A stretch of DNA of 64,000 bases from Clostridia bacterium. GTDB taxonomy: Bacteria > Bacillota > Clostridia > Oscillospirales > CAG-272. Each line of letters opens with the position of its first letter. Position 1 is the first letter of the stretch. The position numbers and the translations under genes were made by a program. Location: assembly GCA_017472255.1 (NCBI GenBank), contig JAFUQU010000014.1:1-64000 (forward strand). The letters are read 5' to 3'. Of the stretch, positions 7,819-54,818 are shown piece by piece. Under the pieces are notes generated by a model, which saw only the letters and a program-made list of their open reading frames with translations, searched no databases and had not been told where the DNA came from.

Positions 7819-7824
7819 TGTTCG

Positions 7825-10908: not shown

Positions 10909-10937
10909 TTGCCTTGGCGGAAAATCTGTGGTATAAT
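10909..10937 (+). promoter_or_regulatory. Sigma-A promoter of the helicase gene
   Basis: TTGCCT at 10909-10914 and TATAAT at 10932-10937 have a 17-base spacer. A small inverted repeat (GATTTTCAG / CTGAAAAAATC, 10870-10894) lies just upstream. Confidence 0.75.
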
Positions 10938-10968
10938 GATTAGGAGAAATACAGGATGGAGGACGCCA

Positions 10969-13842: not shown

Positions 13843-13852
13843 GAAAAATAGC

Positions 13853-13882
13853 GAGGACGCGGCTGACACCGCGTCCTCATTT
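13853..13882. terminator. Bidirectional terminator between convergent genes
   Basis: A 10-bp stem (GAGGACGCGG with CCGCGTCCTC) has ATTTCATTATTTTTT after it on the plus strand and GCTATTTTTC on the minus strand. It serves the helicase gene and the nitrilase-GDPD gene. Confidence 0.88.
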
Positions 13883-13884
13883 CA

Positions 13885-15516: not shown

Positions 15517-15529
15517 AATTATGACCATG

Positions 15530-15663
15530 GCTTTCGCGTAGCGAAAGCTTCCTTTCTGGGGAATTGGGGCTGGTTTGCGTAGCAAAACATTGCCGGGACG
15601 GCAATGTAAGCCACAAAACCCTGTCTGAAAAATTTTTATTTTTCAGACTTTACCTCCGGTAAA
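15530..15663. repeat. Cluster of small intergenic hairpins
   Basis: Five inverted repeats stand almost end to end: GCTTTCGC/GCGAAAGC at 15530-15548, TTTGC/GCAAA at 15574-15586, a 9-bp stem ACATTGCCG/CGGCAATGT at 15587-15607, a 10 to 11-bp stem GTCTGAAAAA/TTTTTCAGAC at 15623-15648, and TTTACC/GGTAAA at 15649-15663. The loops of the first two are both GTA. They lie upstream of the nitrilase-GDPD gene and merge with the terminator of the epimerase gene. Confidence 0.75.
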
Positions 15664-15690
15664 ATGGGACTGCACCTTTGTGCAGCCCCA
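15658..15690 (-). terminator. Intrinsic terminator of the aldose epimerase gene
   Basis: A stem of CTGCAC with GTGCAG, extended by GGG/CCC across one bulged base (15666-15688), is followed on the minus strand by ATTTTACC. Confidence 0.75.
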
Positions 15691-15698
15691 TAATCGTC

Positions 15699-16586: not shown

Positions 16587-16604
16587 ATTGAATGTCCTTT
16601 CTGT

Positions 16605-16642
16605 AAAACGGCGAGGTCAGGCTCTGCCCGCCTCGCCGATTA
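16605..16642 (-). terminator. Intrinsic terminator of the yybS-ftsH operon
   Basis: A CGGCGAGG/CCTCGCCG stem with a 14-base loop is followed by TTTTAC on the minus strand, downstream of ftsH. Confidence 0.75.
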
Positions 16643-16663
16643 TTTGAATGCCTGATGGGTGGT

Positions 16664-18670
16664 TTACTCTTTCATGCGCGGAAGATCGTCGTCGTCGCCG
16701 CGTTTGTCGTGCTTAGCCTTTTCCGCCTCCTCGGCTTCACGGCGCTGACGCTCTTCCTCATCCTTCTGCGCCTTTAGACGGTTTTCTTCCTCGCTCTTGC
16801 GCTTCTTCTCAGCGACCAGCTCCTCCAGCTCCTCTACGGTAGGATTGCCGTCCATAGCCGCGTTGAACTGCACCTCGTCCATGACCTCATTCTTGATCAG
16901 GAATCCGGCGATAAAATGGAGCTTCTCCATGTTCTCGCGCAGAATCTTCATGGCCGTCTCGTAAGCCGTTTCAACCAGACGCTTAATCTCGTTGTCGATG
17001 AGCGTAGCGGTGTCCTCGGAATAGTTGCGGGTGGTGTTGAAATCGCGGCCAAGGAAGACCTCGTCGCTGTTGTGCTCGGAGCCATAGACGATAGGACCGA
17101 GCAGATCGCTCATGCCGTAACGTGTCACCATATTGCGTGCAATGCCGGTAGCGCGCTGAATGTCGTTGGACGCGCCGGTGGAAATGTCGCCGATGATCAG
17201 CTTTTCTGCCACCCGTCCGCCCAGCAGAGAGACGATCTCGTTCTCCATGTCGTTCTTGGACTGGTAGGATTTGTCTTCCAGCGGCAGGGAGAGCGTGTAA
17301 CCGCCCGCGCGTCCGCTGGGAATGATCGAAATCTGGTGTACCGGCGTATCTGGCTGGAGGTACTTGGTCACAATGGCATGACCGGCTTCGTGGTAAGCGG
17401 TAAGCCGCTTTTCCTTCTCGCTGATGATCTTGGACTTCTTCTGCGGACCGACCAGCACCTTGATGGTGGCCTCCTCCAGATCGTTCATTCCGATCAGGCT
17501 CTTACCCTTGCGCGCGGCCAGCAGAGCCGCTTCGTTGAGCAGGTTGGCAAGATCGGCGCCGGTAAAGCCCACGGTGGTCTTTGCCAGCGTGCGAAGATCC
17601 ACATCCTCTTCAAAGGGCTTGCCCTCGGCGTGAACCTTCAGGATATCCTCGCGTCCCTTGATATCGGGGTAGTTGACGGTAATCTGACGGTCGAAGCGTC
17701 CGGGACGGAGCAGCGCCGGGTCGAGAATGTCGGGACGGTTGGTAGCCGCCATGACGATGACGCCGTCATTGCCGCCGAAGCCGTCCATCTCCACCAGCAG
17801 CTGGTTCAGGGTCTGCTCGCGCTCATCGTGACCGCCGCCCAAACCTGCGCCGCGGTGACGTCCCACAGCGTCAATCTCATCGATAAAGATGATGCTGGCC
17901 GGATTCTTCTTGGCCGTATCGAACAGGTCGCGCACACGGGATGCGCCGACGCCCACATACATCTCCACGAAATCTGAACCGGAAATCGAGTAGAAGGGTA
18001 CGCCCGCTTCGCCTGCTACAGCCTTTGCAAGCAGGGTTTTACCGGTACCAGGAGGGCCTACCAGCAGCACGCCGTGGGGGATATGAGCGCCCAGCTTCGA
18101 GAACTTTGCGGGGTCCTTCAGGAACTCCACAACCTCCTGAAGCTCGGCCTTTTCCTCATCCGCACCGGCCACATCCTTGAAGAATACCTTCTTCTTTTCG
18201 TCCGAGCCGAGCTTGGCACGGGCTTTGCCGAAGCTGTTGATCTTACCGCCCTTGCCGCCGGTACCCGTGAACTGATTCACGATAAAGAACCAGAACACGA
18301 TGAAGAGAATGATCACAATGGCGTAGGGCAGCAGGCTGACCCACCACGGAATCTCCACCGGCTCAGCGATGTTGTAAGATTCAATAATACCCGCACGATA
18401 CTGTTCTTCGATTATATCGCCGAACTGATTCAGGAACATCTCGTAATCGCGCAGCGCAAAGGTGATCGTCCGATTATCCTTGGTCAGGATGGTCAGACGG
18501 TCATTGCTGTCGATTTCAAAGGCTCTAACCTGCTGTTCGTAGAACAGCGTGTCGATATCGCTATAGATGACCTGCTCACCGGGTGTGTTGCCGAACAGCG
18601 CGGCAGTTGCCACCAGAATGACACCGATCAGCACCACGTAGAAAATCAGAATTTTGTAATTGGATTTCAT
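16664..18670 (-). CDS. ftsH: ATP-dependent zinc metalloprotease FtsH
   Basis: A membrane-bound AAA+ protease that degrades misfolded membrane proteins and short-lived regulators. Two membrane helices at about residues 6-25 and 111-131 flank an external domain of about 80 residues. The AAA module has Walker A at 205-212 (GPPGTGKT), Walker B at IFIDEID and the second region of homology, and the protease has the zinc motif H427-EAG-H431. The C-terminal 60 residues are a highly charged K/E/R coiled-coil-like tail. At 668 residues it has the normal length. It is the last gene of the operon, 43 bases after hpt, as in many Firmicutes (tilS-hpt-ftsH). Confidence 0.97.
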
Positions 18671-37318: not shown

Positions 37319-38794
37319 ATGAAAACTACGCAAAAAACCATTGCATTGCTTCTCACAGCACTGACCCCGGCATCGCTGCTTCTTTCCTGCGGTGATACCC
37401 AGCCCATTGACCCGGGCAACGTCACCACAGCTTCCGGCAGCGAGGAGACGACCGCTCTCGTGGGCTACGACTACGGTGGACGCGATTATGACGGATACGA
37501 ATTCAGGGTGTTGAACTTTGAATCGATATGGAGCACTTACATTCACCTTGACTTTGCCGAGCAGTCCGGCGAACGGCTGGACGACGCCGTTTACGACCGC
37601 AACCGCAAGGTGGAGGACGCGCTGAACTTCAAGTTTGTGGAAGAAGAAGTCGTTTACGCCGGCTGGGGCACGGGGCAGAACGCCATTCTCGATCTGGTGA
37701 CGCAGGCGGTTATGGCGGGCGATTATTCCTATGATGCCGCGTATCTGCCGGTATCCTTCAAGCCGGGCATCGTGACCGACGGCTATCTGTACGACCTGAA
37801 CGAGCTGCCCGGACTGAATCTGGACGAGGATTACTGGGATAAGGCTCTGAACGAGTCGCTGGAGTTGAACGGACATCTCTACACCGCCTCCAGCCCGCTG
37901 AATCTGATGAGCTTTGATATGGCGGACGTGCTGCTGTTTAATCAGGATTTGTTTGACGACAACAAGCTGGAATATCCCTATCAGCTTGTGCGGGACGGCA
38001 AGTGGACGCTGGATAAGATGTATGAGTACGTGACCGCCGTTACATCGCTGAACGGAGACGAATCCTTTGCCATCAACGCAAACGGCAATGCGGTTTACGG
38101 AATCGCCAGCCACAACGATATTCCCTTTGCCATGACCTACTCGGCGGGCTTCACGATTTCGGATAAGACCGATAAGGGCATTACGCTCAATATCGAAGAT
38201 GAGCGCCTGTACAACATCGTGGAAAAACTGGGTAAGATGTGGGATAAGGAAGCAGGTCACGCCATCATTGGTACGGACGCCAACCAGCCAAACTATTATC
38301 TTGGTCTGTTCAGCTCGGGACGGGCGGGGTTCATTACCTGTGAATTAAAGATGTCACTGGAACTGCGTGACATGGAAGACACCTTCGGTCTGATTCCTAT
38401 GCCGAAGTATGACGAGAGCCAGGAAGAATATCGGACGATGACCGGCTACAGCGCCTGCCTGCTGACCGTTCCGAAGATTCAGCAGAATTCCGAGCGCACC
38501 GGCGTCATTCTGGACGCGCTCAGCTATGAGAGTAATGAAAGCGTGCTCCCGGTCTATTTCGATGTGACCGTATCACAGAAGGGTCTGCTCAACGAAGAAT
38601 CCATCGAGATGCTGGAAATCATCCGCTCCGGACGTGCGGCGGAATATACCCGCATTTACGGTATTTCCAACACCTACGTCACAAAGCTGCTCAATCTGAT
38701 CACCACCGGCAGCACCGATACGGCGTCACTGGCGGCGTCCCAGAAGGCGTCGATGGAGGAAAGCATTCAGAAGGTGCTGGATGCGCTCCAGTAA
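37319..38794 (+). CDS. Extracellular solute-binding lipoprotein
   Basis: A 491-residue lipoprotein with a type II signal ending in LLLSC, a T/S/E-rich linker and a large two-lobed binding-protein domain of the family 1 type (RLDDAVYDRNRKVEDAL, GKWTLDKMYEYV). Such proteins deliver oligosaccharides to ABC importers. AGGAGG precedes the ATG, and it is the third gene of the operon with the GH-A and DUF5107 proteins. No permease gene follows. It is a distant paralogue of the protein at 40553-42028. Confidence 0.85.
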   Translation: MKTTQKTIALLLTALTPASLLLSCGDTQPIDPGNVTTASGSEETTALVGYDYGGRDYDGYEFRVLNFESIWSTYIHLDFAEQSGERLDDAVYDRNRKVEDALNFKFVEEEVVYAGWGTGQNAILDLVTQAVMAGDYSYDAAYLPVSFKPGIVTDGYLYDLNELPGLNLDEDYWDKALNESLELNGHLYTASSPLNLMSFDMADVLLFNQDLFDDNKLEYPYQLVRDGKWTLDKMYEYVTAVTSLNGDESFAINANGNAVYGIASHNDIPFAMTYSAGFTISDKTDKGITLNIEDERLYNIVEKLGKMWDKEAGHAIIGTDANQPNYYLGLFSSGRAGFITCELKMSLELRDMEDTFGLIPMPKYDESQEEYRTMTGYSACLLTVPKIQQNSERTGVILDALSYESNESVLPVYFDVTVSQKGLLNEESIEMLEIIRSGRAAEYTRIYGISNTYVTKLLNLITTGSTDTASLAASQKASMEESIQKVLDALQ

Positions 38795-40552: not shown

Positions 40553-42028
40553 TTATTCGACGATGCTGTAATACTGATCCAGCAGGGTTTGCAGCTCTTC
40601 TTCGGCTTTGGAGAGCAGCGACGCATACTGGGAGGAGAAATTCTCCTTGGCGCCGATGGCGCAGGAACGGAGCAGACCGCCGGAGCCGCCGAAGTTGTGA
40701 ATGCCGTTCAGATCAAAGATGATGTCTTCATAAATGATGTCCATCATGGCTTTGGAGTTTTCGTCGCGGGAGACCTTTTCCTTCAGCGTGATATTGAACA
40801 TCTGCGGTCCGACGGTGGTGTAGGAGAGGTAAGCCATCATTTCCATGGCGGTACCCACCATTTCTGCGCGCTCGGTGGAGCAGGTTACAGGGACAGCCAC
40901 GCCGATGGGACCCCAGGGAGAGCCGTAGGTCAGGTATTCTTCCTGATTCTCGTTCAGCTTGGGCATGGGGATGATGCCGTAATCGTCCTCCATGTCGCGC
41001 AGATAGGCGATGATGCCGGACATATTGTAGCCCATCAGCATGGTCTGGGCGTTCTTGAAGTGCCAGGTTTTGAACTGTGCGGGAACATTCATGTCGGAAA
41101 TTTTCACATTTTCTGTGAGCAGACGCATACTGTCGTCGGCGACCACGGAGATGATCTTATCAAGAATGTCGATATTTTTCGCGCTGTTCATCACCAGTGT
41201 GGGATTGCCGTCCTCGCCTACCTCGGTCTGACTGCCGCCGCAGCCGATGATGAAGGCCTGTCCGGTCAGCTCATCGCAGGCGAAGGCAAAGAAATCGTCC
41301 TGGGTCATGCTGCCGTCATTGTTCAGATCCTTTGCCACATTTTTTGTGATCTGACCAAACTGCTCCAGCGTCCAGCTTCCGTCGATAACCATCTCATAGA
41401 GATCGGGAATCTGGTATTCGTCGGTGATCCGCTGGTTGAAGGCGATGACACAGGGGGCGTAATAATAGGCGAGCGAGATAGGGCCGCTGGTGATGTATTG
41501 CTTTCCGTTGAAGGTCAGATTTTTATGGCAGGACTGGCTCCACCATTCAGAATCAAGGGAGAGGGCGGGTACGATGTTCAGATCGAGCAGGTAGCCCTGG
41601 GGGGCCAGCGTGTTCAGGCCGCCTGCCATGGAGGTGATGATGAGATCGTAGGTGCTGTCTCCCGCAGTGATGGCGGTCTGCACATCTGTGCGAACCTTTC
41701 CGCGATCGTCATAGGCCACATACTCGATTTCAATGCCCAGCCGTTCCTCGACGGTGCGGTCGCGGTTAAATAGCGCATCGTCCACGACTTCGCCGGTCTG
41801 TTCTTCCGGCGGAACGTTGGGCTGTGCGGTCTGATGCTGCAAGATGATAGTCAGGGTTTCGCCATTGAATGTTTTGTTGGAGAGGGTTTCGAGATAACTT
41901 GTAGTTTCAGGAGCGGGCGTGGTGGTGCCGTCTGTGCCTGAGGTGTCTGGGGAACCGCTCTGCGTGCCGCAGGCAGCCATTTGAAGAAGCAGGGATACAA
42001 GGATAATTGCGGTTAAAAACTTTTTCAT
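40553..42028 (-). CDS. Extracellular solute-binding lipoprotein
   Basis: The 491-residue protein has a type II signal with lipobox MAAC, a short T/P-rich linker and a binding-protein fold similar to the protein at 37319-38794 (shared VDDALFNRDRTVEERL and GSWTLEQF segments). It is predicted to capture a sugar at the cell surface for an ABC importer encoded elsewhere. It is a single gene, divergent from the fucosidase gene across a region with repeated AT-rich elements. Confidence 0.85.
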   Translation of the reverse strand: MKKFLTAIILVSLLLQMAACGTQSGSPDTSGTDGTTTPAPETTSYLETLSNKTFNGETLTIILQHQTAQPNVPPEEQTGEVVDDALFNRDRTVEERLGIEIEYVAYDDRGKVRTDVQTAITAGDSTYDLIITSMAGGLNTLAPQGYLLDLNIVPALSLDSEWWSQSCHKNLTFNGKQYITSGPISLAYYYAPCVIAFNQRITDEYQIPDLYEMVIDGSWTLEQFGQITKNVAKDLNNDGSMTQDDFFAFACDELTGQAFIIGCGGSQTEVGEDGNPTLVMNSAKNIDILDKIISVVADDSMRLLTENVKISDMNVPAQFKTWHFKNAQTMLMGYNMSGIIAYLRDMEDDYGIIPMPKLNENQEEYLTYGSPWGPIGVAVPVTCSTERAEMVGTAMEMMAYLSYTTVGPQMFNITLKEKVSRDENSKAMMDIIYEDIIFDLNGIHNFGGSGGLLRSCAIGAKENFSSQYASLLSKAEEELQTLLDQYYSIVE

Positions 42029-42123: not shown

Positions 42124-42303
42124 ATTTTGAATAAAATTATCCGTTTTCCTGCATCGACCCCAGCGATCATACCACCCAAAAGTTTATTTTGGTCATCTAC
42201 AGAACGATTTCAGTTATGTACAAATGCCCGTTTATACATTATAATATTATATATAAACAGCATTGTCAAACATATTCCGAATGATTATACTGGAGGCATT
42301 ACA

Positions 42304-43320
42304 ATGACAAACAAAGAATGGTTTCCCACGGCGAAATTTGGGCTGATGATTCACTTCGGTCTTTATTCGATTCCCGCGGGCGAGTGGAAGGGCAAGCGCA
42401 CCAACCAGATCGGCGAGTGGCTTCAGGCCTATTACCGCATCCCGAACGCGGAATACAGCCAGCTGGCGACCGTTTTCAATCCCATCCTGTTCAACGCGGA
42501 GGAATGGGTGCTGACCGCCAAGGAAGCAGGTATGCAGTACATGGTCGTTACTTCGAAGCATCACGAGGGCTTTGCGCTGTTCCAATCCGAGTGGGATAAT
42601 TTCAATTCCGCCGATGGCACGCCCTTCGGTCGGGATATTATCGCGGAGCTGGCGGAAGCGTGCTACAAGCATGGGTTAAAGCTGGGACTGTATTATTCGC
42701 AGGAGATCGACTGGCATGAGCCGGACGGCGGCGGAATGGCGCGCGGCTATACCCATGTGGGCGCAAACGGCGGATACGGCGAAAAGGGATGCAGCTGGAC
42801 GAACGACTGGGATTTCCCGGACAACGACAAAAAGGATTTCTCCCGCTGCTTCGAAGGCAAAATCAAGACGCAGTTCAAGGAAATTCTCACGAAGTACGGG
42901 GATCTCTGCCTGATCTGGTGCGATACGCCCTCGGATATCACCCCAGCGCAGAGCGATGAGCTGTATGCAATGATCAAGAAGTATCAGCCCGACTGTCTGG
43001 TCAATTCGCGTATCGGCAACGGCATCGGCGATTATCATTCCTGCGGCGACAATCAGGTGGACTTCAAAAAGGCAGGGAACACCTCAGCCGTCGTCGGCGG
43101 ACGCACCGGGCTGTATGAATGCCCCGCTACGCTGAATACGACCTGGGGCTACAAATCCTTCGACAATGAGTGGAAGGATCCCGCGAAGGTCATCGAGATC
43201 AAGAACCGGCTGAACGCGCAGAATATCAATTATCTGCTGAACGTGGGTCCCGACTATCTGGGACGGATTCCCGCTCCGGCGCAGGAAATCCTGCGCGCCG
43301 TGGGTCAGGCATCCAATTAA
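42304..43320 (+). CDS. Alpha-L-fucosidase, GH29 family
   Basis: The 338-residue protein begins with the GH29 pattern WFPTAKFGLMIHFGLYSIPAG and has the phrase VTSKHHEGFALF. The probable nucleophile is D207 in LIWCDTPSD. It should release alpha-L-fucose from glycans such as mucin or milk oligosaccharides. It is shorter than many GH29 enzymes, because no C-terminal beta-sandwich is present. There is no signal peptide. The ATG at 42304 follows GGAGG by seven bases, and the open frame back to 42127 is AT-rich promoter DNA. A TATAAT lies at 42240-42245 with a poor -35. Confidence 0.9.
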   Translation: MTNKEWFPTAKFGLMIHFGLYSIPAGEWKGKRTNQIGEWLQAYYRIPNAEYSQLATVFNPILFNAEEWVLTAKEAGMQYMVVTSKHHEGFALFQSEWDNFNSADGTPFGRDIIAELAEACYKHGLKLGLYYSQEIDWHEPDGGGMARGYTHVGANGGYGEKGCSWTNDWDFPDNDKKDFSRCFEGKIKTQFKEILTKYGDLCLIWCDTPSDITPAQSDELYAMIKKYQPDCLVNSRIGNGIGDYHSCGDNQVDFKKAGNTSAVVGGRTGLYECPATLNTTWGYKSFDNEWKDPAKVIEIKNRLNAQNINYLLNVGPDYLGRIPAPAQEILRAVGQASN

Positions 43321-43401: not shown

Positions 43402-44217
43402 TTACTTTCTCTTCTTGCTTACTGCGAAAACAGCAGCTGCGGAAGCGGAAACAGCGATGATGGAAACAGTGATGGGGTCAAAGGTTTCGGGAGCGGTGGT
43501 CTGCTCAGGCTCTTCGGCAGAAACGGTGGGCTGACCGTTCACAGACAGAATGGTGAAGGTGAAGGCGTCAGCGGCAGAATCCTTGGAGGAAGCTGCGAGA
43601 ACGAAGTGTGCCTTGCCGTCAGCAAAGATGTCGTTGTACTGGGTGAAGGTCTTGTTGGACTTCACGCCGTTCAGGTAGAGATCGTAACCGTTGTCACCCT
43701 TCTTTACGGAGATGGTCAGGGTCGTGCCATCGTTGATCTGGAAAGAGGCATCCAGGTTCTGGCTGCCATCGCCGGACCACTTGTTGCCAGTGGTATCAAC
43801 CAGCTGATAGTGCTGCCAGCCGATAGGATTGGTGCCGTGACGGATCAGGCAAGCATAGCCGCGACCGTTCTTGACGTCGCTGACGCGGAAGAGTTCGGGG
43901 TTCTCCATCAGACCGAAGGAAATCCAGCAGTCGCCGCTCTTAGTTACCTTGTCAAAGCGGACAACAACCTCAAGACCGTCGAGAGCGAGCTTTTCCTTGG
44001 AAGCGATACCGCTCCAGTTCTCGCCGTTGGTGTAGTAACCGCCCTCAGTGACCTGAACGCCGTCGTCAGTTTCAACGACCTTAACGCCGGAAGCCTTGCC
44101 GTCAATCAGGAAGCCGTTGCCGGCAACCCAGTCTTCAGCGCCCGCTGCGGATGCGGGGAGTGCTGCGCTGACTGCGATCAGAAGCGCGGTCAGCAGTGTG
44201 GATACAGTTTTTTTCAT
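43402..44217 (-). CDS. Secreted, membrane-anchored beta-sandwich protein
   Basis: The 271-residue protein has a cleavable signal peptide (cleavage near ALPASAAGA), one domain of about 190 residues that looks like a concanavalin-type beta-sandwich (WISFGLMENPELF, YDLYLNGVKSNKTF), a T/E/P-rich linker, and a C-terminal hydrophobic helix followed by SKKRK. This is the layout of a surface protein held in the membrane by its tail; an LPXTG motif is absent. The domain may bind carbohydrate. The ATG at 44217 is chosen because the signal peptide starts there and GGAGG is upstream. Confidence 0.75.
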   Translation of the reverse strand: MKKTVSTLLTALLIAVSAALPASAAGAEDWVAGNGFLIDGKASGVKVVETDDGVQVTEGGYYTNGENWSGIASKEKLALDGLEVVVRFDKVTKSGDCWISFGLMENPELFRVSDVKNGRGYACLIRHGTNPIGWQHYQLVDTTGNKWSGDGSQNLDASFQINDGTTLTISVKKGDNGYDLYLNGVKSNKTFTQYNDIFADGKAHFVLAASSKDSAADAFTFTILSVNGQPTVSAEEPEQTTAPETFDPITVSIIAVSASAAAVFAVSKKRK

Positions 44218-44245
44218 GATACTTTTCCTCCATTTACAGAAAAAT

Positions 44246-44284
44246 AGATATGCGGTAGACTTCGTATATGCCAACCGCATATCT
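44246..44284 (-). promoter_or_regulatory. 11-bp inverted repeat in the 5' region of the beta-sandwich gene
   Basis: AGATATGCGGT (44246-44256) pairs with ACCGCATATCT (44274-44284) around a 17-base loop. It begins directly downstream of the -10 box, so it may be an operator or a 5' stabilising stem. Confidence 0.55.
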
Positions 44285-44361: not shown

Positions 44362-46617
44362 TTATTTTCCCGTTTCTTCCATTACATAGACCAGCGTGGG
44401 ATTTGTCTCACCGAGAGCCGTCAGCGAATCGGCTGCGGTGGCGTCAAACATCTTCGTGCCTGTCCACAGATTGAGGAACTTGGTGTTATAAGCCTGCACA
44501 TAGGTGTTATTGCTGAAGGTGATCGGCGACTCTGCGCTCATGAAGACCAGAACGCCCAGGCAGCGGTCGAAGATATTGTTCTCTATGGTATTGTTCTCGA
44601 TGGTTTCGGTGGAAATCCAGAACGAGCACATGGGAGCGCTGGTTTCGCGTCCCGCACAGCCCCAGCCGTAGCCGCCGTACCGGCAGAAGTTATCATGGAC
44701 GCTGACGTTGATGGTTTCACGGGTGGTTCCCTCGGGACGGTTGTTGTAATATTCAATCGACCAGAAGCAGTATTCAATCAGGTTGTCGTAATACTCCACA
44801 TTTTTCATGTTGTTGGTCTTGGTGTCGGCGCTGACGTTGAACTGGTGGGTAATGCCGGTGTCGTAAATCTGGTAAATCCAGTTGTTGTAGACGTTATAGC
44901 CGTCCACGCCGCCGTAAACCTCAACGGCGTTGCCATAGCGGGTGGTGTTGCCGCCGCCGAATCCGGCCAGAATCGAGCCGCCCAGCCAGTTGAAGATACA
45001 GTTGCGGACGGTCAGATTCTTGGTGGTGCCTGCTCCAACGCCATGGGCGCCGGTGAGGGTGATGTGCAGGTTATCGATGGTTGTATCGGCGGCGGGGCTG
45101 ATGGTATTCAGGCGTTCGCCGATTTCGATGGATTCAAAACGCTCGCCGGGATTGCCCTCGGTGCTGTAGAAATAGAACTTCTGCGTATTCAGATCGCTGT
45201 AGAACTGAAGATCGTCATAAAGGTCTTTCGCGCCGGTGAAGGTTCCCTGTCCGGCGACCATGCAGATACCGGTCAGTTCGTCGTATTTGCCCAGCTCGCC
45301 GGAATGGTCGAGGGCTACGATGCCCGCGTTGTTCAGGGGTTTCGTGCAGAGCCAGACGTTTTCATATTCGGTTTCCTGCCAGAGAGCGGGATCAGCGTAG
45401 TTCATTTTGGAGCTGTTGATGATCGGCTTTGCGCCCTCGCCGTATGCCGAGTAGGTTACGCCGGCCACGGTTGTGATGTTTCCGCGGAACATATCGCCAC
45501 GGCGGAAGAGCACCACGTCGCCCCGCTTCAGCGGCAGGGTCTTCAGTCTTGCCAGCGTCTTGACGGGTGTTTCTTCGGAAAGACCGTCGTTGCTGTCGTC
45601 GCCCTCCTCGGAGAAGTAATAGATTTTAGTTGCTGCGCCGACGGTGTACTCGCTCTCCGTGTTGAGAATGGCTTCCTTCATGGCGTCCGCTTTGGCGTCA
45701 AGCTCCTTGAGATAGGCTTCATCTGCGACTTTCATGTGAGTTGAATCTCCTTCCTGGGACAGGCTCAGCGCGGAATCAATCTCCAGCGCCTTGTTCTGTA
45801 CATTGGTTTTGATATAATCAAGCAGCATATCGTAGCCGACCGAGGGGTCTGCCAGAATGCCGTAGGCTACTTCCAGCACGCTTCCGTTCATGCGGCAGAC
45901 CGTCTGGGTGGTTTCCAGACTGTCGTCCGTAAGGAATGCGATCTGCGGAGAAGTGTCAGAGTTCAGGTAACGCTTGGTTTCCATATCGAGACCGGTGAGG
46001 CTTTCGATCTCGGCAGCCAGATTGCTTGCCAGCGTTTCATAGGTGGGATTCTTTGTGTCATAGCGGATGAGGCAGTCGGCGATGTTCGTACCGCCCAGCG
46101 TGAACGAATCAATGGTATATTCACCCAGATGCAGATATTTTTCGCCGTCGGCAATGTAGATGTTGCCGTCCACCACATAGTTGTCGAGGAAATATTGAAT
46201 GGCTTCGTCGATGCATTCGGTGCCGTAGATGGTGATTTTGGTGCCGGTGCGGGCGATGCCCCAGTCAAGGCTGCGGGGAAGCTCGGCGGCGATGGAAGCG
46301 GTTGCTTCACGGTTGGTGACGCCCACAAGGATTTCGGCGTCGTTCTCCTTGAATAAGTCAGCGGCGGCACTGCCTGCTTTAGCCACGAAGTCGGTGGTCA
46401 AACCCAGCTCGGTACCGGTACGGGCGGCGATTTCCTTGTTCAGCGCTACCGCCGCGTCAGTGGCGTTGTCGGTAGTATCGGGGCGGACGATGATGTAGGA
46501 CGAGGTTCCGTCCTCACCGATCAGCGCGTCGGCGGGGTTATGTTTTTCTGCACACGCGCAGCAGAGAATCAGCGAGAACAGAATCAGTATAAGAAGCAGA
46601 TAAGTATTTTTTTTCAT
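44362..46617 (-). CDS. Lipoprotein with shared N-domain and parallel beta-helix (copy 3)
   Basis: The 751-residue protein has a signal ending in a cysteine cluster (LCCAC), an alpha/beta N-terminal domain of about 290 residues that recurs in the three genes upstream (motifs DALIGEDGTSSYIIVR, EILVGVTNRE, YFLDNYVVDGNIYIADG), and a C-terminal right-handed parallel beta-helix starting near YYFSEEGDDSNDGLSEETP. Parallel beta-helix proteins of this kind are usually polysaccharide lyases, hydrolases or epimerases acting outside the cell. I see no diagnostic catalytic residues. It is the most divergent of the three copies and is separated from the others by a gene remnant. An AAGGA site precedes the ATG. 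Confidence 0.75.
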   Translation of the reverse strand: MKKNTYLLLILILFSLILCCACAEKHNPADALIGEDGTSSYIIVRPDTTDNATDAAVALNKEIAARTGTELGLTTDFVAKAGSAAADLFKENDAEILVGVTNREATASIAAELPRSLDWGIARTGTKITIYGTECIDEAIQYFLDNYVVDGNIYIADGEKYLHLGEYTIDSFTLGGTNIADCLIRYDTKNPTYETLASNLAAEIESLTGLDMETKRYLNSDTSPQIAFLTDDSLETTQTVCRMNGSVLEVAYGILADPSVGYDMLLDYIKTNVQNKALEIDSALSLSQEGDSTHMKVADEAYLKELDAKADAMKEAILNTESEYTVGAATKIYYFSEEGDDSNDGLSEETPVKTLARLKTLPLKRGDVVLFRRGDMFRGNITTVAGVTYSAYGEGAKPIINSSKMNYADPALWQETEYENVWLCTKPLNNAGIVALDHSGELGKYDELTGICMVAGQGTFTGAKDLYDDLQFYSDLNTQKFYFYSTEGNPGERFESIEIGERLNTISPAADTTIDNLHITLTGAHGVGAGTTKNLTVRNCIFNWLGGSILAGFGGGNTTRYGNAVEVYGGVDGYNVYNNWIYQIYDTGITHQFNVSADTKTNNMKNVEYYDNLIEYCFWSIEYYNNRPEGTTRETINVSVHDNFCRYGGYGWGCAGRETSAPMCSFWISTETIENNTIENNIFDRCLGVLVFMSAESPITFSNNTYVQAYNTKFLNLWTGTKMFDATAADSLTALGETNPTLVYVMEETGK

Positions 46618-46624
46618 AGGAATC

Positions 46625-46785
46625 CTTTCATTCTTTCACGGTGATTTTGAGTACGTGACCGCTGTCATAAGCGGCAGCTGAGGGATGATGGCAGCTTCGC
46701 CGCCGGAGGTTTTGACGATGATTTCTGAGTAGCAATTGCTGTGGACGTGTCCACAGAAAATCCCCTTGATGAGATCATAGATTTC
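46625..46785 (-). pseudogene. Remnant of the 3' end of a lipoprotein-phosphoesterase gene
   Basis: Read on the minus strand, this stretch matches the last 50 to 60 codons of the gene at 51385-53226: EIYDL, IKGIFCGH-x-HS, YSEII, KTSGGE and AIIPQ can all be read. An in-frame gap of about six codons, a 13-base deletion after AIIPQ that shifts the frame, and loss of the stop codon (TAA to GAA) make it non-functional. The sequence between it and the start of copy 3 is also nearly identical to that between the intact gene and copy 1. Confidence 0.85.
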
Positions 46786-46792
46786 CTTTTTA

Positions 46793-46843
46793 TATTATGG
46801 TATAATGCGGCTGTCAAGAAAACAGCCGCATTATACCATAATA
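46793..46843. repeat. Perfect 22-bp inverted repeat with 7-base loop
   Basis: The arms at 46793-46814 and 46822-46843 are perfectly complementary. No T-tract follows on either strand, so it is not a standard terminator. On the minus strand it contains TTGACA, 17 bases, TATAAA, so it may be the promoter of copy 3. It lies exactly between copy 2 and the gene remnant and could be a miniature mobile element or a mark of the rearrangement. Confidence 0.8.
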
Positions 46844-46854
46844 GCGAGATATGC

Positions 46855-49116
46855 TTATTCTACGTCATCCATAACGTAGACCAGCGTGGGATTGTTTTCG
46901 CCCACCTTGGCCAGCGTCTCGGCAGCAGTACCGTCGAACATATAATTGTTGCCCCAGAGATAAGCGAACTTCACGCCGTAGGGTTGGATGTAGGTGTTGC
47001 CGTTGAAGTTCATAGTTCCTTCCTTGCCGACTCGAATCAGCAGACCCAGGCAGCGGTCAAAGATGTTGTTGGTCAGATAGTTGTCCTTCACTTCTTCTCC
47101 GGCGGAGTTCATGGCGCACATGGGAGCGCTGGTTTCGCGTCCGAGGCATCCCCAGCCGTAACCGCCCAGACGGCAGAAGTTGTCGTGGATGGAGACGTTG
47201 GTGGTGTTTCGTTCGGTGCCCTCCGGACGGCTGTTGTAGTATTCCAGCGACCAGAAGCAGTATTCAATCAGGTTGTCATAATACTGCACGTCGTTCATGT
47301 TGTTGACCGCCTTGCTGGGGGTGGAACTGAACTGATGGGTGATGCCGGTGTCGTAAATCTGGTAAATCCAGTTGTTGTAGACGTAGTAGCCGTCCACCCC
47401 GCCGTAAACCTGCACCGCGTTGCCGTAGCCGGGGATGTTGCCACTATTGAAACCGGTGAGAATCGAGCCGCCCAGCCAGTTGAAAATGCAGTTGCGGACG
47501 GTCAGATTCTTGTTGTCTCCGGCGCTGACGCCGTGTGCGCCCACATGGGTTACATGGATGTTGTCGATGACAATATCGTTGTTTGAGCCTACCTGGAAGG
47601 TGTTTTCACGGACGCCAATTTCGATGGATTCAAAGCGCTCGCCGGGATTGCCCTCGGTGCTGTAAAAATAGAGCTTGTTGGTAGCAAGATCGCTCCAGAC
47701 TTGCAGGTCTTCGTTCATATCGGCGGCGCCGTTAAAGTTATTGGTTCCGGCTACCATGCGGGTACCTACCAGCTCATCGTATTTGCCCAGCTCCCCGGTA
47801 TGGTCGAGGGCTACGATACCCACGTTCACCAGCTTCTCCGTGCAGACCCAGACGTTTTCGTATTGGGTTTCAAGCCAGAGCGCGGGATCGGCGTAATTCC
47901 GTCTGGAGCTGTTGATGATCGGCTTTGCACCCTCGCCGTATGCCGAGTAGGTTACGCCCGACCGGGTTTTGATGACGCCACGGAACATATCGCCTCTCTT
48001 GAAGAGAACCACGTCGCCGGCGTTCAGCGGCAGGACGTTCAGCTTATCCAGCGTCTTCATCGGAGTTTCTTCGGAAAGACCGTCATTGCTGTCGTCGCCG
48101 GTTTCGGAGAAGTAGTAGATTTTTCCGCCTTCGCCCACGGTGTACTCGCTCTCGGTATAGAGAACGGCGTCCCGCATGGCGGCGGCTTTTGCGTCAAGCT
48201 CGTCAAAATATGCTTTATCTGCGATCTTCACGTGTTCAGAATCTCCTTCGTTAATCAAATTCAACGTTGTGTCAATGGCAAGCGTCTTGTTCTGAATGCC
48301 CGCGTCGATGTAATCAAGCAGCATCGTATAGCCGGTTTCGTAGCTGCCAAGGATGCCGCGGGCAATCTCAAGCACATTGCCGTTCATGCGGCAGACCGTT
48401 TCGGTGATGTCCAGCGTGTTATCGGTCACAAAGGCGATCTGCGGATCGGTATCGCCGGGCGTGGTCTGTTTAACCTCCAGGGTATAGCCGTACAGTTCGT
48501 TGATCCGGACGGCTAAATCCTGTGCCAGCGTCTGAGCGGCGGTGTTGCCCGATTCATAGCGGATGGAGCAAGATTCGATGTTCGTATCGCCTACTGTGAA
48601 CGAATCGATGGTGTAATCGCTTAGATGCAGATACTTCTCGCCGTCGGCGATGTAAATGTTGCCGTCCACCACATAGTTGTCGAGAAAATACTGCACGGCT
48701 TCATCAATGCACTCGGTACCGTAGATGGCGATCTTCGCGCCAGAGCGCATGATTCCCCAGTCCCGGCTGCGGGGAAGCTCGGCGGCAAGGGTGGAGGAAA
48801 GCTCGCGGTTGGTTTCGCCCACAAGGATTTCGGTGTCGATTTCTTTGAACTGATCGGCAATCGCACTGCCCGCTTTGGCGACGAAGTCGGTGGTCAGGTC
48901 AAGCTCCACGCCGATGCGCTCGGAGATCGTATTGGTCAGCGTAACCGCTGCCTGAACGCCGGTTTTGATGGTGTCCGAACGGACGATGACATAGGAGGTA
49001 GCACCGCCCTCGCCGATCAGCGCATCGGCGGGGTCACGGGGTTTCTCCGAGGTACACGCACCCAGCAGGACGCATACACAGAACAGCAGAAGAATGGTCA
49101 GTACGGATTTTTTCAT
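46855..49116 (-). CDS. Lipoprotein with shared N-domain and parallel beta-helix (copy 2)
   Basis: The 753-residue protein has lipobox LLGAC, the same N-terminal domain as its neighbours (DALIGEGGATSYVIVRSD, EILVGETNRE, NYVVDGNIYIADGEKYLH) and the same beta-helix (YYFSETGDDSNDGLSEETP, LTVRNCIFNWLGGSIL). It is much closer to copy 1 than to copy 3, especially in the beta-helix, where long stretches are identical. Its ATG overlaps the copy 1 stop in an ATGA, so it is translationally coupled. It is expected on the outer face of the membrane. No catalytic residues can be named. Confidence 0.8.
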   Translation of the reverse strand: MKKSVLTILLLFCVCVLLGACTSEKPRDPADALIGEGGATSYVIVRSDTIKTGVQAAVTLTNTISERIGVELDLTTDFVAKAGSAIADQFKEIDTEILVGETNRELSSTLAAELPRSRDWGIMRSGAKIAIYGTECIDEAVQYFLDNYVVDGNIYIADGEKYLHLSDYTIDSFTVGDTNIESCSIRYESGNTAAQTLAQDLAVRINELYGYTLEVKQTTPGDTDPQIAFVTDNTLDITETVCRMNGNVLEIARGILGSYETGYTMLLDYIDAGIQNKTLAIDTTLNLINEGDSEHVKIADKAYFDELDAKAAAMRDAVLYTESEYTVGEGGKIYYFSETGDDSNDGLSEETPMKTLDKLNVLPLNAGDVVLFKRGDMFRGVIKTRSGVTYSAYGEGAKPIINSSRRNYADPALWLETQYENVWVCTEKLVNVGIVALDHTGELGKYDELVGTRMVAGTNNFNGAADMNEDLQVWSDLATNKLYFYSTEGNPGERFESIEIGVRENTFQVGSNNDIVIDNIHVTHVGAHGVSAGDNKNLTVRNCIFNWLGGSILTGFNSGNIPGYGNAVQVYGGVDGYYVYNNWIYQIYDTGITHQFSSTPSKAVNNMNDVQYYDNLIEYCFWSLEYYNSRPEGTERNTTNVSIHDNFCRLGGYGWGCLGRETSAPMCAMNSAGEEVKDNYLTNNIFDRCLGLLIRVGKEGTMNFNGNTYIQPYGVKFAYLWGNNYMFDGTAAETLAKVGENNPTLVYVMDDVE

Positions 49117-51371
49117 TCGGCGGTTTCCTCCTCCATTACATAGACCAGCGTGGGATTGGTCTCGCCTACCTTGGCCAGCGTATCACGGGCAGTACTGTCG
49201 AAGTTGTAGGTGGTACCCCAAAGGTAAGCGAACTTCACGCCGTAGGGTTGGATGTAGGTGTTGCCGCTGAAGTTCATCGTGCCTTCCTTGCCGACCCGGA
49301 TCAGCAGACCGAGGCAGCGGTCAAAGATATTATTGGTCAGATAATTGTCCGCCACATCCTCACCGCTGGAGTTCATGGCACACATGGGAGCGCTGGTTTC
49401 GCGGGTGCGGCAGCCCCATCCGTAACCGCCCAGACGGCAAAAGTTATCATGGATGGAGACGTTGGTGGTCTTGCGCTCGGTGCCCTCGGGACGGACGTTG
49501 TAGTATTCCAGCGACCAGAAGCAGTATTCGATTAGGTTGTCGTAATACTCTACATCGTTCATGTTGTTGACCGTCTTGCTGGGAGTGGAACTGAACTGAT
49601 GGGTGATGCCGGTGTCGTAAATCTGGTAAATCCAGTTGTTGTATACGGTGTAGCCGTCTACGCTGCCGTAGACTTCCACCGCGTTGCCGTAGCCGGTGAT
49701 GTTGCCGCCACCGTGTCCCAGCAGGATCGAGCCGCCCAGCCAGTTGAAAATGCAGTTGCGGACGGTCAGATTTTTGGTGGAACCTGCGCCTACGCCATGT
49801 GCGCCGGTGAGGGTTACGTGCAGGTTGTCAATGGTTACGTCAGTAACGCTGACGGAGATGGCATTCTTGCGTTCGCCGATTTCAATGGATTCAAAGCGTT
49901 CGCCGGGATTGCCTTCGGTGCTGCAAAAATAAAGTCTGTCGTTTTCCCAGTCGCCCCAGACCTGTAGGTCTTCGTTCATATCGGCGGCGCCGTTGAAGTC
50001 GTCACGTCCGGCCACCATGCGGGTGCCTACCAGCTCGTCGTATTTACCCAGCTCACCGGAGTGGTCGAGGGCTACGATGCCGACATTCACCAGCTTCTCC
50101 GTGCAGACCCATACGTTCTCATACTCGGTCTGCTTCCACAGAGAGGGATCAGCGTAGTTGCGTTTGGAGGCGTTGATGATCGGCTTTGCGCCCTCACCGT
50201 AGGCGGAATATGTAACGCCTGTTTTGGCGGTGATGTTGCCGCGGAACATATCGCCTCGCTTGAAGAGCACCACATCGCCCTTCTTCAATATCAGCAGATT
50301 AAGCTTGTCGATGGATTTTAGCGGGGTTTCCTCGGAGAGACCGTCGTTGCTGTCGTCTCCATCCTCGGAGAAATAATAGATTTTGCCTCCCGCGCCGACG
50401 GTGTACTCGCTTTCGGTGTTGAGAACGGCCTGCTTCATGGCTTCGGCCTTGGTGTCCAGCGCTTCAAAATACGCGGTGTCTGCTACTTTCACGTGTTCCA
50501 CATCTCCTTCATCAGATAAATTAATATCGCTGATTGCCAGCGTTTTGGACTGGATGCTGCTCTGGATGTAGTCGGACAGCATCGTATAGCCGTCCATCGG
50601 ATCGGCCAGCAGACCGCTCGCTACCTCCAGCGTACTGCCGTTCATACGGCAGACCGTTTCGGTGACACCCAGACTGTCGTCGGAACAGAAGACGATTTTC
50701 GCCGAAGTGTCATTTTTCTTAAATCTTTCGGTTTTGGCGGCCAGTCCGGTCATTTCCTGCAGCTGGGACGCCAGCTGCTTGGCCGCTTCAATCATGGTAT
50801 CGGATTCGTAGTAAACCTCAGCGGAGGTCATATCCGCGCCGTTCAGAGTCAGGCTGTCCAGCGTGTAATCTGCGATGTGCAGATACTTTTCGCCGTCGGC
50901 AATGTAAATGTTGCCGTCCGCCACATAGTTATCGAGAAAATACTGAACCGCTTCCTCAAGGCACTCGGTGCCGTAAATGGCGATCTTCGTGCCGGTGCGG
51001 ATGATGCCCCAGTCGCGGCTTCGGGGCAGCTCGGCGGCAAGGGATATGGAGGCTTCGCGGTTGGTCTCGCCCACAAGGATTTCGGTGTCGATTTCCTTGA
51101 ATTTATCAGCGGCGGAGCTTCCGGCTTTGGCGATAAAATCCGTGGTCAGTCCAAGCTCCACGCCGGTGCGCTCGGCGATGGCGCTGTTCAGAGAGACGGC
51201 TTCCGGGGTAGCGGCATCGTTGGTGTCGGAACGCACAATGATGTAAGCGGTGGTTCCATCCTCGCCGATCAGAGCGTCAGCCGGATTGCGCGGCTCCTCC
51301 GACGTGCAGGCACAGCAGAAAATCAGGGAAAACAGGGTCAGTATAAAAAACAGATAAGTATGTTTTTTCAT
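49113..51371 (-). CDS. Lipoprotein with shared N-domain and parallel beta-helix (copy 1)
   Basis: The 752-residue protein starts with a lipoprotein signal ending in FCCAC, then the shared N-terminal domain (DALIGEDGTTAYIIVRSD, EILVGETNRE) and the beta-helix (YYFSEDGDDSNDGLSEETP). A linker around residues 270-320 with alternating charged residues separates the two. It begins 13 bases after the stop of the phosphoesterase lipoprotein gene and overlaps copy 2 by four bases, so these are cotranscribed. AAGGA precedes the ATG. Copies 1 and 3 share the same upstream sequence, so copy 3 probably derives from a duplication that included this gene. Confidence 0.8.
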   Translation of the reverse strand: MKKHTYLFFILTLFSLIFCCACTSEEPRNPADALIGEDGTTAYIIVRSDTNDAATPEAVSLNSAIAERTGVELGLTTDFIAKAGSSAADKFKEIDTEILVGETNREASISLAAELPRSRDWGIIRTGTKIAIYGTECLEEAVQYFLDNYVADGNIYIADGEKYLHIADYTLDSLTLNGADMTSAEVYYESDTMIEAAKQLASQLQEMTGLAAKTERFKKNDTSAKIVFCSDDSLGVTETVCRMNGSTLEVASGLLADPMDGYTMLSDYIQSSIQSKTLAISDINLSDEGDVEHVKVADTAYFEALDTKAEAMKQAVLNTESEYTVGAGGKIYYFSEDGDDSNDGLSEETPLKSIDKLNLLILKKGDVVLFKRGDMFRGNITAKTGVTYSAYGEGAKPIINASKRNYADPSLWKQTEYENVWVCTEKLVNVGIVALDHSGELGKYDELVGTRMVAGRDDFNGAADMNEDLQVWGDWENDRLYFCSTEGNPGERFESIEIGERKNAISVSVTDVTIDNLHVTLTGAHGVGAGSTKNLTVRNCIFNWLGGSILLGHGGGNITGYGNAVEVYGSVDGYTVYNNWIYQIYDTGITHQFSSTPSKTVNNMNDVEYYDNLIEYCFWSLEYYNVRPEGTERKTTNVSIHDNFCRLGGYGWGCRTRETSAPMCAMNSSGEDVADNYLTNNIFDRCLGLLIRVGKEGTMNFSGNTYIQPYGVKFAYLWGTTYNFDSTARDTLAKVGETNPTLVYVMEEETAE

Positions 51372-51384
51372 AGGAATCCTTTCA

Positions 51385-53226
51385 TTATTTCACAGTGATT
51401 TTGAATACGTGACCGCTGTCATAAGCGGCAGCTGTGAGGATATACTGAGGGATGATGGCATCTTCGCCGCCGGAAGTTTTTGCGATGATTTCCGAGTAGT
51501 AATCGCTGTGGATGTGTCCACAGAAGATACCCTTGATCAGGTCAGCATTATTGACAATCAAATCATAAATCTCTTGGGTAGCGCCCGACGCCTTGGCGCC
51601 GATGCCGCTGTTGTAGAGATTTCTGGGAACGCCCGAACCGTCGTTGACACGCAGCGGGTAGAAGGTCGCTTCATCGGGATTGTTCGAGCAGAGCGGGATA
51701 TGCTGGAACAGCAAAACGGTGTAGCCCTTTTCCCGTGCAGTTTCCAGATCAGCTTTGAACGGCTCAATCTGGTTGTCCCAATACTTGTTCTGGCTGTTAT
51801 CCATCTGGATAATCATAACCTTTTCGTCGATGACCTTGGAGAAATAGTAAATGTCGTGATAAGGGGCCCAGACCTCCTCCAGCCATGTGTAACGTTCCTC
51901 CAGCGTTGTGGTTTCGGCAACCTCACCCTGCACCCGGCGTACCGGTTCGTGATTGCCGATGGTGGCGATGGCGTCGGGATACTTGTCCCAGAGGGTTTTC
52001 TGCATCAGCTCGATGCAGCCCCAGGAGAGGTAGTCCAGCGTATCGCCGGTGACGACGATCTGGTCAGCGTCCGCCGCATATGCCAAACAGCGCTCAGCGT
52101 TGGCTACTGATGAGCCGTTAGCCAGCCACTTGCGGTTTGCCAGCGTGCTCATCAATACGGGATCGTTTTCGTCCAGATCTTTCTGGTTGCAGTAATTGAA
52201 GTGCATATCCGAAACCTGTACGATGGTGACGGGATCGCCGCCCTTGCCCGAATCGAACTCGGCTTCACGAACCATCAGACCGTTGTCCAGCTTGTAAATC
52301 CAGAGGTTCGGTTCCTCCGACGAGCCGACCACGTCATTGTCGCCATTCATGGACAGATTCAGGTCAGCGGGAATGTCAACTTTCTTGTCTACAGCGTTGG
52401 TTTTAATGTAATCCAGCAGCATGGCGTAGCTGTCGTAGGGGTTACCCTGCGAACCGCAGACCGCGTACAGGGATTCGCCCTTTACGTAGCAGGCTGCCTT
52501 GCCCGTGCCTGCCGAGCCAATGGTTCCGAAGTAGATGATCGGCTTATCGGTAACTTTCATGGGCTCGACGGTCAATTCACATCCTGCCATCTCATACAGA
52601 TCGACGGCTAGCTTTTTGGCGATGATCGGATAATAGGTCACATCCGTGTCATATTGAATGACGAACTCGTTGATGTCCCGTCCGTTGATGGTCAGGACGT
52701 CCAGCTCATAGTCGCCCATGTTGATGTAACGTTCGCCGTCGGCGATATAGATATTGCCGTCTCTGACATAGTTGTCGAGAAAATACTGAATGGCTTCATC
52801 CAGACAGTCGGTGCCGTAAATGGCGATTTTCGTGCCTTCACGGGCAATGCCCCAGTCCAGACCGCGGGGCAGCTCCGATTTCAGCCCGACTGAAAGGTCG
52901 CGCACCGTGTCGCCAATCAGGATTTCGCATTCATGCTCCTTGAACTTGTCCGCGCCGGCACTTCCAGCTCTGGCAACAAAGTCGGTGGTCAGCTCCAGCT
53001 CCACGCCGCAGCGCTCGAGAATGGCTTCCTTAAGTGTGAGGGCGGAAGGTGTGGCGGCATTGGATGAATCAGAACGGACGAGGACAAAAGAAGTGGTTTT
53101 ATCCTCACCGATCAGACCATCGACGGCCGGAGGCTGTTCTTCGCCGGAGGAACAGGCGGCGAGCAGCGTCATGGAAAGCAGCAGCGCTGTGCAGAGGCTC
53201 AACAGAAATAGTGATCGTTTTTTCAT
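51385..53226 (-). CDS. Lipoprotein with shared N-domain and calcineurin-like phosphoesterase
   Basis: The 613-residue protein has a type II signal ending in LLAAC, the same N-terminal domain as the three beta-helix lipoproteins (DGLIGEDKTTSFVLVRSD, EILIGDTVRD, YFLDNYVRDGNIYIADG), and a metallophosphoesterase domain from about residue 335. All metal motifs are there: D-x-H in VSDMHFN, VTGDTLD, GNHEP, the histidine in FQHIPL, and CGHIHSD. It should hydrolyse phosphoesters outside the cell, perhaps phosphorylated glycans or nucleotides. The ATG at 53226 has AAGGAGA before it; an upstream frame reaches into the neighbouring gene. It is the first of the lipoprotein genes and starts 10 bases after nnr. 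Confidence 0.85.
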   Translation of the reverse strand: MKKRSLFLLSLCTALLLSMTLLAACSSGEEQPPAVDGLIGEDKTTSFVLVRSDSSNAATPSALTLKEAILERCGVELELTTDFVARAGSAGADKFKEHECEILIGDTVRDLSVGLKSELPRGLDWGIAREGTKIAIYGTDCLDEAIQYFLDNYVRDGNIYIADGERYINMGDYELDVLTINGRDINEFVIQYDTDVTYYPIIAKKLAVDLYEMAGCELTVEPMKVTDKPIIYFGTIGSAGTGKAACYVKGESLYAVCGSQGNPYDSYAMLLDYIKTNAVDKKVDIPADLNLSMNGDNDVVGSSEEPNLWIYKLDNGLMVREAEFDSGKGGDPVTIVQVSDMHFNYCNQKDLDENDPVLMSTLANRKWLANGSSVANAERCLAYAADADQIVVTGDTLDYLSWGCIELMQKTLWDKYPDAIATIGNHEPVRRVQGEVAETTTLEERYTWLEEVWAPYHDIYYFSKVIDEKVMIIQMDNSQNKYWDNQIEPFKADLETAREKGYTVLLFQHIPLCSNNPDEATFYPLRVNDGSGVPRNLYNSGIGAKASGATQEIYDLIVNNADLIKGIFCGHIHSDYYSEIIAKTSGGEDAIIPQYILTAAAYDSGHVFKITVK

Positions 53227-53236: not shown

Positions 53237-54742
53237 TTATTCTTCAATAATTTTCTTCATGGCGGCGGGAATATGCTTCACCGTATCGCCCGCAATCATG
53301 GCCGCTTCGGGAACATCCTTCGCCGCAAGCTCACCCGCCAGACCGTTCAGGTAGGCGCCCGCAGCCACGCCTAGCAGCAGGTCTTCGTCATCCACAAAGC
53401 CGCAGATGCCTGCCAATATGCCCGACAGCACGTCGCCGCTTCCCGCAGTCGCCATGCCCGCACAGCCACGGTCGATGAGGTAGACGGTCTTTCCGTCGGT
53501 GACAATGGTGGTCGGTCCCTTCAGCAGCAGAATCGCGCCGGTGGCAGCGGCATACTCCTTGGCGGCGGAGATGAGGTCGTTGCGGAATTCCTCAAAGCGG
53601 TCGCCGCAGAGACGCTCAAATTCCTTGGGATGGGGGGTGAGAATCAGGCGGCAGGAGGTATTTTTGAAGCGCAGCCGATCCATGTCGGCGATGGCGTTCA
53701 GACCGTCGGCGTCGATGATCAGCCGCCCGCTGTACTCGCAGAGGGCGTATTCCATCAGGCGGCGCACCTCCGGCGAACGTCCCATGCCCATGCCGATGGC
53801 GGCGGAACGGATATGATTGAAAAGACGCAGCGTGGTGTTGTGGGTGTAGCAGTAAGCGCCGTCCTCCTCATCCAACGGGAAAAGAGTGCTTTCCAGCAGA
53901 TAGGGCATCACCGCGTGGGAGATGCTGCGCGGAACCGCCAGCTTGGTCACGCCCGCGCCCGAACGCAGGGCGGCCAGCGACAGATTGGCCAGCTTGGCCG
54001 CGCCGCTGTATTCCACCGATCCGCCGATCAGCGCCACATAGCCGTAATCGCCCTTGTTGCTGTTCTGGAGCCGATGGTCAAAGAGACGACGGATGTCGGC
54101 GGCTTCAACCAGATAAGCGGGGGATTCCAGCGGCTCGATGCCGATCTCGCAGTTGACCTTCTGGCGGATGACATCCTTGGCCGAGTTCAGGAACAGACCG
54201 CTTTTGAAGCAGCCGATGGAGACGGTCAGATCGGAGTGTACGCAGATGCTGTCCTCTCCGGCAAGACCGCTGTCACCGCCCAGACCGCTGTTGATGTCGG
54301 CGCAGACCACATAAGCGCCGCTTTGGTTGATACGCTCGATGGCGGTTCGGTAAGGCTCATTCACCGCGCCCTTGAAGCCGGTGCCGAAGATACAGTCGAG
54401 CACCGTAGCAAAGCCGAATAGATTCAGCTCGTCAATGCCGCGGCGGATATCCACGCCCAGCGCTTCGCAGCGCTCAAAGAAATAGCGTCCGTCCTCGGTG
54501 AAATGATCGGACAGCAGGAACAGGGTGCATTCGATGCCCGCGTTCTGCAAAAGCTCGGTGACGACGAAGCCGTCGCCGGCGTTGTTGCCGCCGCCGCAGA
54601 CGATGGCCACGGGTGGACGCCAGTCGGCGGCGCCGAAGATCGCTTTGCCGGCGCGGAGCATCAGCTCGCGGGATGGGGTTGTGTGTTCGATGGTATATGC
54701 GTCGCTTTTTCTCATATTGTCAACGGAAACGACTTTGATCAT
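53237..54742 (-). CDS. nnr: Bifunctional NAD(P)HX epimerase/dehydratase (YjeF type)
   Basis: It repairs hydrated NAD(P)H. The N-terminal epimerase domain has CGGGNNAGDGFV, and the C-terminal ADP-dependent dehydratase domain has LTPHPKEFERL and GSGDVLSGILAG. At 501 residues it has the standard length of the fused enzyme. The start at 54742 is set by AAGGAG; the frame upstream is non-coding. It leads the transcript that continues into the lipoprotein genes, though a functional link is not obvious. Confidence 0.95.
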   Translation of the reverse strand: MIKVVSVDNMRKSDAYTIEHTTPSRELMLRAGKAIFGAADWRPPVAIVCGGGNNAGDGFVVTELLQNAGIECTLFLLSDHFTEDGRYFFERCEALGVDIRRGIDELNLFGFATVLDCIFGTGFKGAVNEPYRTAIERINQSGAYVVCADINSGLGGDSGLAGEDSICVHSDLTVSIGCFKSGLFLNSAKDVIRQKVNCEIGIEPLESPAYLVEAADIRRLFDHRLQNSNKGDYGYVALIGGSVEYSGAAKLANLSLAALRSGAGVTKLAVPRSISHAVMPYLLESTLFPLDEEDGAYCYTHNTTLRLFNHIRSAAIGMGMGRSPEVRRLMEYALCEYSGRLIIDADGLNAIADMDRLRFKNTSCRLILTPHPKEFERLCGDRFEEFRNDLISAAKEYAAATGAILLLKGPTTIVTDGKTVYLIDRGCAGMATAGSGDVLSGILAGICGFVDDEDLLLGVAAGAYLNGLAGELAAKDVPEAAMIAGDTVKHIPAAMKKIIEE

Positions 54743-54818
54743 GAAAATCTCCTTGTCTTGCCGCAATAAGGCGGCGGGGGGTTCATTCTACCAGATGCAT
54801 GGCAAAACGCCTACCACA

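Follow-up and report, generated by a model that had tools for sequence, protein, structure and literature searches.

What is the role of a front end that several neighbouring lipoproteins have in common when the modules behind it differ? This question is raised by four co-directional open reading frames (ORFs), ppe, h3, h2 and h1, on the minus strand of a 64,000-nucleotide stretch of contig JAFUQU010000014.1 (the window), from the Clostridia bacterium assembly GCA_017472255.1. All four proteins start with a signal-peptide-like stretch and a lipobox cysteine, signal peptides and lipoboxes being called by pattern throughout this study. A shared region, which we resolve into two domains named N1 and N2, is followed by a beta-helix in h1, h2 and h3 and by a calcineurin-like phosphoesterase in ppe. 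We found that the same front end recurs before many other modules in related genomes. With some reserve, the reading that we favour is that N1-N2 is a membrane-proximal display module, fitted with swappable enzymes.

The four neighbours indeed share an N-terminal domain of about 290 residues, as the initial annotation had stated. Over the N-terminal 300 residues, ppe is 48-51% identical to the three beta-helix proteins and aligns with them throughout, with E values down to 1e-84. We could refine this region into two tandem copies of one fold, N1 (residues ~37-172) and N2 (~170-290). In an AlphaFold2 (AF2) model of the N-terminal part of ppe, the predicted local distance difference test (pLDDT) score is above 90 over most of residues 100-290. 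Modelled N1 folds like the N-terminal domains of GH115, GH67, GH20, GH84 and GH138 enzymes (Z 9-11.9; best root-mean-square deviation, rmsd, 2.5 over 123 residues), and N2 repeats its order of strands and helices. Moreover, tandem copies were found with an N1 hidden Markov model (HMM) in several relatives, for example L115 (106 and 67 bits), L119, L077, L118 and L044. By alignment, N1 occupies positions 50865-51254 in h3, 48613-49002 in h2, 46117-46506 in h1 and 52708-53097 in ppe, where the model and its fold match agree. The borders of N2 in ppe (52357-52716) are approximate, being placed from the repeated secondary structure and the tandem copies in relatives. The beta-helix paralogues have 73-78% identity to one another in N1 and 46-55% in N2 (dN, the nonsynonymous divergence, 0.13-0.17 versus 0.39-0.52); because of this difference, N1 is the unit that they truly share, with N2 evolving faster.

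None of the Pfam or NCBIfam models matches the N-domain above cut-off. Weak Pfam matches occur among relatives; in a set of 16 N-domain members the best were to GH20b (E 1.3e-4) and NAGLU_N (9.5e-4), all below the gathering score, and no match of this type was found in the window proteins themselves. A profile of the N-domain gave nothing significant against PDB sequences (best E 0.019), and a full-text literature search returned no paper describing N1-N2, which is weak evidence as it covered open-licence papers only. The function of the domain had been called uncertain from the start, and this assessment holds, though the fold is that of the accessory domains of GH67, GH115, GH20 and GH84. 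By its modelled fold, N1 is an unnamed relative of these accessory N-domains.

A profile search for other fusions of the N-domain, as the initial annotation had suggested, was positive. The source genome, a single fragmented assembly that is 86% complete, holds 17 full N-domain copies. In a scan of genome contigs, the window's own N-domain subfamily found zero relatives, and a broader N-domain set found 27 loci. Within the order, 48 of the 295 genomes searched bear N1 (the source genome included); in a phylum-wide draw of 299 genomes it was detected in one genome besides the source, and weakly. The named relatives bearing N1 are Clostridia metagenome-assembled genomes, many of them from animal guts and the rumen. 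A lipobox precedes N1 in 95 of 107 N1-bearing ORFs, with a median of 26 residues from the cysteine to N1.

At least 14 types of C-terminal module, classified by Pfam, stand behind N1; such counts are lower bounds, the loci having been collected by profile or pattern and not by census. Among them are GH26, GH43, AXE1, GDSL/CE2, BNR repeats, DUF4838, WbsX, GxGYxYP and GLUG. The beta-helices comprise the type seen in the window and one with a GH141 insertion domain, and further partners are two unrelated metallophosphoesterases, EEP, alkaline phosphatase, a metallo-beta-lactamase fold and NAGPA. Some partners are glycoside hydrolases (GH26, DUF4838) and most are modules of other kinds. Several C-terminal clusters (L049, L067, L094, L106, L122 and L131) have no Pfam match, and their modules are candidates for new enzyme families. 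Four lipoproteins (L018, L061, L062 and L063) consist of N1-N2 alone, with no enzyme module. They form one clade (100/91) from the source genome and three others of the genus, and imply a function that needs no enzyme module at all.

The exchange of modules behind N1-N2 can be followed within the array. A tree of 81 N1 domains (131 columns, deep forks poorly resolved) groups N1 of ppe with those of h1, h2 and h3 (100/99), and the next members around this clade are also beta-helix proteins (97/82). Hence, as judged from the sequences, the phosphoesterase of ppe has replaced a beta-helix behind a front end of the beta-helix lineage. A second metallophosphoesterase, unrelated to that of ppe, has joined N1-N2 independently (L044). 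Immediately before h1 lies what is left of a second phosphoesterase gene, a decayed 3' end (46618-46777, minus strand), which continues into h1 and is 74% identical to ppe residues 569-610 (numbered in a 620-aa reading). From this remnant through the junction into h1, the sequence is 80% identical to the ppe-h3 junction over 293 alignment columns (E 1e-76). Because both the remnant and the junction match, the two-gene unit of phosphoesterase and beta-helix was duplicated, one phosphoesterase copy then decaying. A second array in the same genome (L156, G000:C1:22000-41900, 6447-17249) comprises four N1-N2 beta-helix lipoproteins and one bare beta-helix gene. This gene, second in the row (~8799-10220), is intact but opens right where the beta-helix module does, so that it lacks the N-domain as well as a signal peptide. 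Altogether, the claim that the C-terminal modules are interchangeable is strongly supported by the variety of partners and the N1 tree, and the exchange also by the bare beta-helix gene, the stand-alone relatives of the phosphoesterase (see below) and the remnant of the duplicated ppe.

The initial annotation had assigned a complete phosphoesterase to one protein and beta-helices to three, and both assignments stand. The lipoprotein ppe (613 aa, 51385-53226, minus strand) was taken to start with the ATG at 53226, closely preceded by AAGGAG; an alternative TTG at 53247 is less likely. Its C-terminal module (51388-52329) matches Pfam Metallophos (PF00149) above cut-off (E 3.6e-8) and holds all five metal motifs, DMH, GDTLDY, GNHE, FQHI and GHIH. 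Directly behind N2, at residue 299-300, homology to stand-alone phosphoesterases sets in. Foldseek matched the module to SMPDL3A and Lmo2642, that part of the AF2 model being of low confidence; the nearest sequence relatives of the module are stand-alone proteins without a signal peptide, two of them encoded by the source genome and others by related genomes. Such proteins are apparently cytosolic. Most of the stand-alone relatives (L004, L006, L069, L070 and L072) have GGHE or GGHD where ppe has the canonical GNHE, so that glycine replaces the usual metal-binding asparagine.

The beta-helix lipoproteins are h3 (752 aa, 49113-51371), with its helix module at 49116-50471, h2 (753 aa, 46855-49116) and h1 (751 aa, 44362-46617), all on the minus strand. 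Their matches to Pfam Beta_helix (E 5e-5, 0.02 and 7e-4) are all below the gathering score. The AF2 model of the beta-helix, much of it of low to moderate confidence, resembles beta-helix enzymes with Z scores of 15-18. Among these are the right-handed beta-helix of GH141 (BT_1002; 5mqp, Z 17.8) and the GH136 lacto-N-biosidases LnbX, ErLnb136 and TnX (7v6m, Z 17.1, 22% identity, rmsd 3.2 over 233 residues), and in structure the modelled helix is nearest to these two families. In sequence, the N-terminal cap is shared with GH136 and GH141 enzymes (E 1e-10 to 1e-14) and similarity stops after it, for which reason we do not assign the beta-helix to GH136. ErLnb136 uses the catalytic aspartates D568 and D575 and also requires an all-alpha domain I (PMC7335108). 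Equivalents of the aspartate pair were not located in the window beta-helix, as the sequence alignments reach no further than the cap. No all-alpha domain I was seen within the window proteins, whose N-terminal part is the alpha/beta tandem; no search was aimed at a separate partner subunit.

How might one front end serve such different modules? In the reading that we favour, a lipid-modified cysteine would tether N1-N2 to the cell membrane. Behind it, some 25 linker residues would lead to a pair of small alpha/beta domains, which would hold the enzyme away from the membrane, stabilise it, or both. Recombination among paralogues would then exchange the enzymes, and one exported, anchored front end could serve many extracellular enzymes, which may cooperate at the cell surface. 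Consistent with a stabilising role, the GH20b domain of a GH20 enzyme is needed for its expression and stability (PMC4449183). Some points weigh against this reading. The function and location of N1-N2 are predicted, and the lipoboxes were judged by pattern. Moreover, in 38 rows found by HMM and not chosen by motif, proteins with different module types keep one polar core, D...EIxxGxTNRxES. Such conservation exceeds the need of a mere spacer, though the core may be structural. A second stretch, TDWVKRG, was rejected as a binding motif, since many of the aligned rows had been pre-selected by that very pattern; in the rows found by HMM only the polar core holds.

The same conserved core bears on the view of the initial annotation, that the shared domain may bind a common glycan or surface ligand; N1-N2 would then be a carbohydrate-binding module bringing diverse enzymes to one common glycan. 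A single domain with many carbohydrate-active partners would fit this view, as would a core kept across module types, and the faster evolution of N2 among paralogues is what might be expected of a part that sets specificity. However, the core is mostly polar and possibly structural, the accessory domains of GH20, GH67, GH84 and GH115 that share the fold have no described binding role in PMC4449183, and GH26, GH43, EEP, alkaline phosphatase and NAGPA suggest different substrates. As the data fit a structural or spacer role no less well, we regard the common-glycan view as possible and rather unlikely. A comparably modest chance attaches to the broader proposal that Clostridia use N1-N2 as a docking module of a kind not yet described, by which different enzymes would all recognise one ligand, a glycan or a part of the cell wall. 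If so, this lineage would build a large extracellular enzyme set by swapping cargo, in a manner comparable to display by dockerins or SLH domains but independent of cellulosomes.

N1-N2 could also bind the cell's own wall, either peptidoglycan or a wall polymer, and so hold the lipoproteins in the envelope. N1 nearly always adjoins the lipid anchor, which would place it within the wall zone of a Gram-positive cell, and its fold recurs in an S-layer domain from Methanococcus voltae (9fsa; Z 9.3, rmsd 3.1 over 105), the title of which is 'cell wall anchoring domain'. Nevertheless, a shared fold proves no function and the lipid anchor makes a second anchor superfluous, so that wall binding seems improbable to us. 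Finally, the idea that phosphoesterase and beta-helix form a dedicated system, acting in turn on a phosphorylated or phosphate-linked polysaccharide, could draw on a probable operon (see below) and on the union of N1 elsewhere with alkaline phosphatase, EEP, NAGPA and another metallophosphoesterase, but neither this idea nor the processing of such a polysaccharide that the initial annotation suggested has specific support. We consider it very unlikely, given that many of the enzymes behind N1 have no relation to phosphate, that the phosphoesterase relatives are stand-alone and apparently cytosolic, and that h1 was kept when the phosphoesterase copy next to it decayed.

The arrangement of the genes and their neighbours adds some detail. 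The genes ppe, h3 and h2 probably form one operon: they follow one another in the same direction, 14 bp separate ppe from h3, and the start of h2 overlaps the stop of h3. Just after h2 and before the phosphoesterase remnant lies an inverted repeat (46793-46843) whose 22-bp arms match perfectly around a 7-nt loop. It is terminator-like, but a T run was not seen; as a dispersed repeat it was rejected, being single-copy in the genome. Upstream, an apparent NAD(P)HX repair gene (nnrE/nnrD type, identified by eye; 53237-54766, minus strand) is co-directional and stops about 10 bp before the ppe start. The next gene downstream of the array (43402-44280, minus strand) codes for a secreted 292-aa protein with a C-terminal hydrophobic stretch, a KKRK tail and no Pfam match. 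Beyond it, a GH29-type alpha-L-fucosidase (42127-43320, plus strand; Pfam 5e-66) lies beside two solute-binding proteins (37319-38794, plus strand, and 40553-42028, minus strand), a hint of fucosylated glycans.

Whichever role N1-N2 plays, the array illustrates clearly, and in a directly testable form, how enzymes are exchanged while the unit for export and anchoring stays the same. N1 is a mobile domain that marks many extracellular enzymes of little-known Clostridia and is above cut-off in none of the family libraries searched. Searches for new carbohydrate-active and phosphoester-active enzymes can start from this domain.

Two known systems invite comparison. The first is that of the GH20b, GH67N and NAGLU_N domains, with which N1 shares fold, N-terminal place and weak Pfam matches. 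Unlike them, N1-N2 is a tandem pair, membrane-proximal in lipoproteins and below the Pfam cut-off. The accessory domains of GH20, GH67 and GH84 accompany TIM barrels, whereas N1-N2 is mostly joined to other modules; those in the window are beta-helices and a phosphoesterase. The second is the DUF1735 (PF08522, BT_3987-like_N)/BACON pair of Bacteroidota surface lipoproteins, for which a role as membrane-bound spacers has been proposed (PMC11216935). Like N1-N2, these domains are N-terminal, mostly borne by lipoproteins, present in many copies per genome and followed by varied C-terminal partners (PMC11216935). They differ in host, Bacteroidota as against Clostridia, and in fold, an immunoglobulin-like beta-sandwich as against an alpha/beta domain like GH67N and GH20b, and DUF1735 had zero matches above cut-off in 197 genomes of the order. 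By analogy, N1-N2 is most likely a Gram-positive counterpart of DUF1735/BACON with a different fold.

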